Source of the DNA: an uncultured Candidatus Saccharibacteria bacterium | GTDB lineage: Bacteria > Patescibacteriota > Saccharimonadia > Saccharimonadales > Saccharimonadaceae | DNA: 64,000 bases | Assembly (NCBI GenBank): GCA_947304155.1 | Contig: CAMZAD010000001.1 | Coordinates: 1 to 64,000, forward strand | Direction of reading: 5' to 3' | Shown: positions 30,968 to 52,394 of the stretch, in pieces | Position numbering within the stretch: position 1 is the first letter of the stretch | Layout of the letters: each line of letters starts with the position of its first letter | Program-made: the position numbers and the translations under genes | The notes under the pieces: generated by a model | Told to the model about the DNA's origin: nothing | Databases searched by the model: none | The model's input: the letters and a program-made list of their open reading frames with translations, nothing else

Positions 30968-31210
30968 TTGCAATCTGGTTTTAGTTTGTTATAGTGCTGG
31001 CCGTGGGAAGGAACTTAAAAGATTATTGAACCTTCGGAGCTGGTGGGCTTTGTCTCTCAACAGGCTCAATAAACGGCTATTCTAGAAATGCTAGAGTTTT
31101 GTTAGAAAGGAGAAAGATGAAGACTCTAAAGATTAGACTCTTGTGGAATCTTGTTAATTTCGAAATTACTTTCGGACAAAAAACTCGCTAGCGTGAGCTA
31201 GCAAGTTTTT
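30968..31210 (+). ncRNA. candidate short transcript with promoter, structured 5' part, 24-aa ORF and terminator
   Basis: TTGCAA-N16-TATAGT; TTATTGA(31023)/TCAATAA(31066) helix; ORF 31117-31191; terminator ACTCGCTAGC..GCTAGCAAGTTTTT. Confidence 0.45.
31117..31191 (+). CDS. 24-aa small ORF MKTLKIRLLWNLVNFEITFGQKTR
   Basis: SD gaaaggag 7 nt upstream of ATG; stop codon lies in the terminator stem. Confidence 0.45.
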   Translation: MKTLKIRLLWNLVNFEITFGQKTR

Positions 31211-31479
31211 ACCACAACCAGACAGGTGATGATTCTAGATAAATCATCTGTCTATGTTTATTATATTATAAACGTAAGAGGGAAGTCAAGAATAAAAAGC
31301 GGCCGTCAAGCCGTTCGCGAAAACATTAACAATTCTAGAAACAACATCCAAAACTGTGACTTAACAACCGCTTTTTGATGTTGAAATATAAAGTTAAAGA
31401 AGTTACTTTTTATACTCCGGATCAGGAATACTTCGGAGAAGACTAAAACTCTGCATTAAAATATTGTATAATTATTTTA

Positions 31480-40279: not shown

Positions 40280-40367
40280 AGCGATCTAATGAGGTTTTTA
40301 AGATGCTTGAAATTAGCATCTAGTTTTGGTTGATAAAAATAAAAAACAAAATAAAAAGGAGGCAATT

Positions 40368-40433
40368 ATGCCAAAGCAAATCATTGTAAAAAGCAACTCT
40401 CGTGCACAACAAATCAAGGTGCACTTCTGCTAA
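40368..40433 (+). CDS. 21-aa small ORF MPKQIIVKSNSRAQQIKVHFC
   Basis: Very strong SD aaaaaggaggcaatt before ATG; stop abuts the first RNA helix. Confidence 0.55.
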   Translation: MPKQIIVKSNSRAQQIKVHFC

Positions 40434-40631
40434 TTTAGCGATTTGATTCGGGGCTTCAGCTCACGCTGGCCCCACTATGACGGGTCAAGTTCGCTAAACG
40501 AGTGAGATCCGATTTTGGTTGTGAGTTAAAACCAGGATGTTTTTTAAATATATATGACCTTCCCGGAGTTACTTTTAGAGCGATGCGGTGGTGCGGTTCT
40601 AAAAGGCTCCGGCCTAGACAAATATTTAAAA
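40434..40631 (+). ncRNA. candidate structured RNA/leader upstream of ftsL-like gene
   Basis: TTTAGCGA/TCGCTAAA; GGGGC-tt-CAGC tcac GCTG-GCCCC; ATCC..TGGTT/AACCA-GGAT; TTTAAATAT, CCGGAG, CTTTTAGA / TCTAAAAG, CTCCGG, ATATTTAAA. Confidence 0.6.
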
Positions 40632-40677
40632 CTGGTAAAACTCAAAAAATAAAAACAAAAATTTAAAGCGAGGAAAA

Positions 40678-51068: not shown

Positions 51069-52103
51069 TTATTCTTCGTTGATTGTATAGAGATTTTTAT
51101 CAACTTTTTTGAAGAGTTTCTTGTTTTGAAGATTAAGTAAAATTGTAGTTTCTTTAATCTTTCTTAATGCTAAGACGCGTTTGACGATTTGTTCACGAGT
51201 AAGTGGCTTCTTAGCTTGGCGAAGGACATCTGAGATAGTTTCAGCTGCAGTTCCCTTCTTGTAGCCCCAAGAATCGAGTGCATAAATTCCACGACCGATC
51301 AAGACAAAGCGTGAATCTTTGATAAGTTCGTTGTGAATTGCTTGAATAGTGACATTTTTGCGACGGAAATCAGATTGCTTGATTGCTTCTGCGATTTCTT
51401 CGAAGTGCATTGGCTCTTTCTTTTCTTCGAGTACAACGTAGATTTTGTCGCGAATATTTTTAGGATTAACAGTTGGCCATTTAGCAAGTCCCCAAAGATT
51501 GTTGAGGGTTGCAAGCAATTTTGATGTGGACGCAATTGCTTTTATATGGTCTGGATGCTCATAATTTAGATTATTGTCAAGCTCGTCAATTGTCATCGGA
51601 GCTTTGTTTTTCTTAATAAGATTTACGATTTCATCAACTTTAGCTTTGATTTCTTTTTCCTTGCCATATTCTGCAATGCCAATGGAATTGAAATACTTGT
51701 CGTTTTCTTCAATTAGAGTAAGATTGGTTGAAATTTCACCAATAAACGTAATTGCTGACTCTTCTTTTTCGGTAGCTTTTTTACCAAAAATTTTCTCTGC
51801 AATATCAGAAACACGTGCGATACGTCCCATTTCGGTAAGATTTCTGATAATAATTTTTTCTGCATGTGCGAGATCAGGTATCTTGTTGTCTTCTGCTGAA
51901 ATGCGTAGACGAATTAGGATAGCTTTTTCAAGTTGCCTGACGCGCTCACGAGTAATTGAAAGCATGTCGCCGATTTGTTCGAGAGTTTCCTTCTGACCGG
52001 AAAGACCGAAGCGGCGGGATATGATTTCTTTCTCACGGTCTTGCTCGATGATACTCAAGCTGCCGCTGATTGCTTTTGCAATCACTTCCGCATTTTGATC
52101 CAT
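51069..52103 (-). CDS. sigma70 region 4-like HTH fused to HARE-HTH domain(s)
   Basis: REKEIISRRFGLSGQKETLEQIGDMLSITRERVRQLEKAILIRLR; C-terminal HARE-like EEIAEAIKQSDF..VTIQAIHNELIKDSRFVLIGRGIYALDSWGY. Confidence 0.7.
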   Translation of the reverse strand: MDQNAEVIAKAISGSLSIIEQDREKEIISRRFGLSGQKETLEQIGDMLSITRERVRQLEKAILIRLRISAEDNKIPDLAHAEKIIIRNLTEMGRIARVSDIAEKIFGKKATEKEESAITFIGEISTNLTLIEENDKYFNSIGIAEYGKEKEIKAKVDEIVNLIKKNKAPMTIDELDNNLNYEHPDHIKAIASTSKLLATLNNLWGLAKWPTVNPKNIRDKIYVVLEEKKEPMHFEEIAEAIKQSDFRRKNVTIQAIHNELIKDSRFVLIGRGIYALDSWGYKKGTAAETISDVLRQAKKPLTREQIVKRVLALRKIKETTILLNLQNKKLFKKVDKNLYTINEE

Positions 52104-52345
52104 TTGTTATTCCTTTATTCCACCCCTGTTGATAAAATCAATTATTGTTATATTAACATAATTTTGTGCTAATGTCAACTACTCACTATAATATGAATTT
52201 TTGCACATTCCCAAAATCATTTTAACACATTTTTTGTAATTTCAACAAAAAAATTTTATTAAAATTTTCAAATAAGAATAATCATTATATAATAAAGTGC
52301 TTATGCTTATTTTTTCAACAAAAATAAAACATATATAAAAATAAG

Positions 52346-52386
52346 CAAGGGGCGAGTTTTTGGCTCGATTCCCTGCTTATTTTATA
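52346..52386 (-). terminator. intrinsic terminator after topA
   Basis: ATAAGCAGGG..CGAGCC..CTCG..CCTTGCTTATTTTT on minus strand. Confidence 0.7.
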
Positions 52387-52394
52387 GGGGTAGG

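Follow-up and report, generated by a model that had tools for sequence, protein, structure and literature searches.

A class-wide microprotein gene between rsmH and ftsL in Saccharimonadia and a structured RNA that accompanies it in two genera

What is a 21-amino-acid (aa) open reading frame (ORF) doing directly ahead of a multi-helix RNA, in the gap between rsmH and an ftsL-like gene of a division cluster? The question is raised by positions 1 to 64,000 of contig CAMZAD010000001.1, a 64,000-nucleotide (nt) stretch from an uncultured Candidatus (Ca.) Saccharibacteria bacterium that we call the window. The source assembly is 771 kb, and its same-genus matches are Ca. Saccharibacteria, mostly from ruminant gut, with one Ca. 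Nanosyncoccus alces. The original prediction offered two answers for the layout, a leader peptide coupled to RNA structure or a small-protein mRNA with a structured 3′ region. When the rsmH-ftsL intervals of relatives are compared, both the ORF and the helices prove to be conserved; purifying selection, class-wide occurrence of the ORF, and covariation of the RNA support the second answer. Taken as a whole, the small ORF (sORF) and the RNA are probably best read as a conserved peptide product followed by a younger cis element ahead of ftsL.

The microprotein gene

The segment 40368-40433 is a genuine microprotein gene under purifying selection. Its start, AAAAAGGAGGCAATT-ATG at 40368, the encoded peptide MPKQIIVKSNSRAQQIKVHFC, and the TAA stop at 40431-40433 are present as had been described. 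Across 102 distinct 21-aa ORFs of the genus, the ratio of nonsynonymous to synonymous change (dN/dS) is ∼0.13, with proportions of synonymous (pS) and nonsynonymous (pN) differences of 0.629 and 0.157 and with changes mostly at third codon positions; 23 order-level sORFs give pS 0.668 and pN 0.187. A DNA search matched the segment made up of the Shine-Dalgarno (SD) sequence and the ORF in 22 of 23 same-genus relatives. Within the genus, residues M1, P2, Q4, I5, and S11 are invariant, and R12, K17, V18, and F20 are almost so. The last position is variable, with R, C, L, K, V, or H. Conservation runs along the whole peptide and is not concentrated at the C-terminus, the length of which varies across the class; the consensus is MxIxVxNxSRAxKVxVRV. 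No transmembrane stretch is seen in the microprotein sequences, the genus residue table holds no run of codons for a regulated amino acid, and searches of Pfam, NCBIfam, and the PDB sequences with both the peptide and a profile returned no microprotein match (none in PDB at expectation values, E, up to 10).

The gene is kept throughout the class. Anchored on rsmH, loci of the window's own family show a following ORF of 20-23 aa in 36/36 cases and loci from other families of the order one of 19-20 aa in 20/21; the 21st of these, L203, does carry an ORF, MPIKVKSQSRSYKVPVRIVH, with a weaker SD. Both class-level loci (2/2) have ORFs, of 22 and 27 aa, and all 40 of the additional order and class stretches contain the sORF, one of them (L264) as a divergent 31-aa ORF that is probably homologous to the family. 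In all, a homologous 19-27-aa ORF lies between rsmH and ftsL at ∼99 usable Saccharimonadia sites, that is, at every one examined, with five sites left out of the counts because the contig end was reached or the rsmH frame was not recovered. The family and order groupings used here follow kinship labels. The sORF was found at 0 of 22 rsmH sites of other Patescibacteria, where ftsL or other sequence stands instead; two mechanical matches among these sites were rejected for lack of any resemblance to the family. A profile built from 28 members (A6) agrees within the class, where nearly all matches at E < 0.01 fall just 3′ of rsmH, one per genome. Outside Saccharimonadia it returned chance-level matches alone, none below E 0.0176. 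We note that the sensitivity of such a short profile is limited by peptide length (at E ≤ 1 the profile missed 18 of 61 class genomes, some with an ORF visible by eye), and the absence outside the class therefore rests mainly on synteny.

The translation signals of the sORF are strong. Of 113 genus copies, 102 have an 8-nt SD match; among 200 larger background genes, 16 do (8%), the background statistics resting on 259 kb of contig C1. AGA and AGG together make up 2.6% of sORF Arg codons versus 24.6% in background genes, and CGC/CGT account for 94% versus 70%. This combination of SD and codon choice fits strong translation. At three loci from other families of the order (L205, L212, and L194), rsmH stop and sORF start overlap by 11-17 nt, a sign that in those families translation of the microprotein may be coupled to that of rsmH.

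The downstream RNA

Downstream of the sORF lies a structured RNA that is conserved in, and specific to, the genus Ca. Nanosyncoccus together with one sister genus. The rsmH-ftsL gap spans 40280-40677, wider than the interval first proposed, and the conserved RNA core lies at ∼40501-40630. In relatives the gap shares a hairpin AUGGRCC/GGYCCRCCA, a GAGU motif, UAUGACCUUCC, and a two-part stem with apical UUACUUAUAGCUCUG, followed by CUAAG. The unpaired stretches UGACCUU and ACUUAUAGCUCUG are highly conserved, and the letters of the apical CUCU and upstream GAG motifs, a candidate pseudoknot, are nearly invariant. The complementary segments described earlier for two further domains are present in the window. 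We infer that its middle hairpin (40507-40539) is homologous to the ATGGRCC/GGYCCRCCA hairpin found at the same position in relatives; the outer TTTAAATAT/ATATTTAAA helix is seen in the window species only.

Comparative data carry the case for this RNA. Model R1 matches 102 of 118 genus genomes, once each except for one genome with two matches, and the copy in the window counts among the divergent ones (40501-40623, 27 bits, E 0.0057). Compensatory support is found for 12 of 14 pairs, which change on both sides, and 97.8% of cells are paired over 87 distinct sequences, in a 91-sequence alignment (A3) that was fitted to the model and so leans toward structure. In the unfitted alignment A1, with an RNAalifold structure, 8 of 14 pairs already show double changes. 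None of 500 shuffles reached the covariation values of the RNA, and sliding by one column halves the pairing. The RNA lies 3′ of the sORF in 81/81 loci and 5′ of ftsL in 80/81, a constant position as expected of a structured cis-regulatory RNA, and all 101 pattern matches among 85,462 genomes are Saccharibacteria. No Rfam family reached its gathering score at gathering or permissive thresholds, the best sub-threshold hits being unrelated eukaryotic families, and no tRNA or transfer-messenger RNA was found at the locus.

How far the RNA extends bears on its age. R1 found no other genus among 148 genomes of the order. Direct reading of the gap in the sister genus g24 revealed a diverged homologue with an ACAUG hairpin, GGAGUGUGUAA, UUUUGACCUUC, and a closing stem, and some g24 species add further hairpins showing UUUUGACC in the loop. 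A second model built from g24 (R2) found no third genus among 101 family genomes. Each model misses the other's genus, so distant forms of the RNA may be missed. Most other genera of the order have a single GC-rich hairpin without a U-run between sORF and ftsL, and several other class families lack even that. The sORF is retained in genera that lack the elaborate RNA and is conserved class-wide whether the RNA is present or not; with the RNA confined to two genera, the peptide is the older of the two. The UUUUGACC-type loop hairpins occur two to five times between sORF and ftsL in sister-genus loci L167, L314, L316-L318, L320, L332, and L340, resembling a repeated protein- or RNA-binding site.

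How peptide, RNA, and ftsL may be related

The strand TTTAGCGA (40434-40441), directly 3′ of the sORF stop, can pair with TCGCTAAA (40491-40498) just before the second hairpin, as the original prediction had it. Over 79 loci this pairing, P1, is stronger between cognate strands (mean −13.9 kcal/mol) than between swapped ones (−10.7 kcal/mol; permutation p about 0.0005). In many Nanosyncoccus species the sORF stop marks the start of this first helix or lies inside it, and in several the stop codon itself is paired.

In the reading that we favor, rsmH and the sORF would share a transcript, the sORF would be highly translated, and the peptide itself would be the functional product, with RNA, the ribosome, or a division-cluster partner such as FtsL as its likeliest binding target. 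Its form may be two short β-type strands with an N-x-S-R-A turn between them, net basic. The RNA would act in cis within the rsmH-sORF-ftsL mRNA, setting sORF and ftsL expression apart through stability, processing, or translation. With the first helix starting right at the sORF stop codon, ribosomes that terminate there would unfold it.

Several points weigh against this picture. That the sORF is translated, and at a high rate, is inferred from sequence signals, and the β-hairpin form with RNA or ribosome binding is a guess from the residue pattern. Across a sizable share of the genus P1 is weak or missing. The ribosome-binding sites (RBSs) of sORF and ftsL are both predicted to be mostly open, giving no sign of a simple masking switch, a mechanism that we rejected on this ground. 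Folding energy likewise fails to discriminate. Positions 40368-40640 fold with a minimum free energy of −87.1 kcal/mol (z −4.15 relative to dinucleotide shuffles), and the whole rsmH-ftsL gap, at z −4.46, ranks ninth among the 49 codirectional gaps found in 259 kb of the genome (contig C1), 8 of the 49 scoring higher. Structured gaps are common in this genome and the fold alone is weak proof; it is conservation and covariation that carry the RNA.

A first alternative is that processing of the sORF 3′ region releases the RNA as a stable small RNA that acts in trans, its place before ftsL being incidental. A compact multi-helix RNA with conserved unpaired UGACCUU and ACUUAUAGCUCUG need not serve ftsL, and the repeated UUUUGACC loops of the sister genus would suit such a role. 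However, the order is always sORF-RNA-ftsL, no promoter-like or terminator-like site lies at the bounds of the RNA, and a free copy elsewhere was never found in the 118 genus genomes or in the 85,462-genome pattern search. We give this explanation a minor but real chance.

The second alternative is the other half of the original prediction, in which ftsL is controlled, via the RNA that follows, by translation of the sORF or stalling on it, and the peptide as such is functionless. The very strong SD, the stop at or inside the first helix, the preference for cognate strands, and ftsL lying directly downstream in 80/81 loci all speak for it. Yet residues are conserved over the whole peptide while the last residue and C-terminal length vary, there is no codon run in the sORF, no intrinsic terminator stands 3′ of the RNA, the ftsL RBS is predicted open, and the sORF persists in genera without the RNA. 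An amino-acid attenuation leader was rejected on the missing codon run and terminator, and a nascent-chain arrest peptide was rejected because conservation is not concentrated at the C-terminus. The placing of the sORF stop at or in the first helix of many species stands; a peptide that serves solely as a leader is improbable. Leaders of the TrpL, TnaC, and SecM type likewise combine a short ORF with a structured RNA downstream and are followed by a gene that looks regulated, but the microprotein has neither a codon run nor a C-terminal arrest motif, no terminator follows the RNA, and the peptide is kept where the RNA is lacking.

A more speculative proposal, and in our view a long shot, is that the microprotein is an RNA-binding β-hairpin whose binding site, in Nanosyncoccus and the sister genus, is the adjacent RNA, the two forming a minimal autoregulatory pair. 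If true, the pair would set FtsL output in step with RsmH and so tie ribosome maturation to division.

It is scarcely credible that sORF and FtsL form a single product by ribosomal bypassing or frameshifting over the RNA: a short ORF does end in a structured region before another coding frame, but the sORF-ftsL distance ranges from 178 to 720 nt over all three frames (33/26/21) with no fixed relation, and ftsL has its own start and usually its own SD. A chance ORF with chance folding in an AT-rich gap, to which the frequency of structured gaps and an SD-bearing but unmatched sORF at ∼31117 could lend color, is counted as refuted by class-wide synteny, dN/dS, and covariation.

Returning to the peptide as a conserved product, a few known systems come near it in kind. 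Small division regulators such as SidA (29 aa), MciZ (40 aa), and Blr (41 aa) are likewise very short proteins linked to cell division; the microprotein is shorter, shows no transmembrane stretch, keeps a fixed rsmH-ftsL place class-wide, and has no family match. Like the ribosomal proteins bTHX and eL41 (20-26 residues), it is basic and has strong translation signals, and it adjoins an rRNA methyltransferase gene, but it lacks a PDB match and is hydrophobic-alternating instead of lysine/arginine-rich. With its covarying helices, its conserved unpaired nucleotides, and its leader position in an mRNA, the RNA resembles the structured cis-regulatory RNAs of Rfam; it differs in that no family reaches the gathering score.

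Proteins of ∼20 residues usually fall under annotation cut-offs. Kept at every usable class site in a fixed place of the division cluster, the microprotein is probably important and overlooked. Nothing relevant on this sORF or RNA in Saccharibacteria was found in the open-access literature searched, the coverage of which is incomplete, so that an earlier description is possible. The RNA, which Rfam does not contain, is a family with clean covariation support, and its arrival in two genera beside an older microprotein offers a natural example of how a conserved small gene gains regulation. Some Saccharibacteria are cultivable and genetically manipulable (PMC10633639), and with these systems the necessity of the microprotein is directly testable.

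Features of the locus and other structured gaps

Table 1. Coordinates of genes and RNA domains in the rsmH-ftsL region of the window
Feature	Position	Strand	Evidence
rsmH (mraW), upstream neighbor, 299 aa	39380..40279	+	PF01795 1.3e-84, TIGR00006 3.7e-84
SD of the sORF, AGGAGG within AAAAAGGAGG	40358..40363	+	read in sequence; SD counts across genus
21-aa microprotein gene MPKQIIVKSNSRAQQIKVHFC, stop included	40368..40433	+	dN/dS 0.13, class-wide synteny, profile search
P1 domain, TTTAGCGA / TCGCTAAA around hairpin GGGGC-tt-CAGC-tcac-GCTG-GCCCC	40434..40498	+	folding; cognate-strand pairing, 79 loci
Middle hairpin domain, ATCC..TGGTT / AACCA..GGAT	40507..40539	+	R1 match 40501-40623; hairpin covariation in relatives
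Core domain, TATATGACCTTCC, two-part stem CCGGAG..CTCCGG + CTTTTAGA..TCTAAAAG, then CCTAG	40543..40630	+	UAUGACCUUCC..CUAAG motif conserved in relatives; R1 match E 0.0057
ftsL-like gene, 131 aa	40678..41073	+	TIGR02209 ftsL 1.1e-4, 22 bits, below cut-off; DivIC 0.0081; place in division cluster

No intrinsic terminator was found 3′ of the RNA; the sole terminator-like site at the locus, a weak hairpin at 40301-40321 (+), precedes the sORF, lying between it and rsmH, and could lower sORF transcription from the rsmH promoter.

Two other gaps of the window are also structured. The 394-nt gap 31086-31479 (z −4.6), before a RelA/SpoT-type gene, holds the 24-aa ORF MKTLKIRLLWNLVNFEITFGQKTR at ∼31117 (+) with a good SD; its DNA has no match in 24 relatives and the ORF looks unconserved. 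A strongly structured gap at 52104-52394 (−), with z −5.9, lies upstream of a sigma-factor-like/helix-turn-helix gene (51069-52103).
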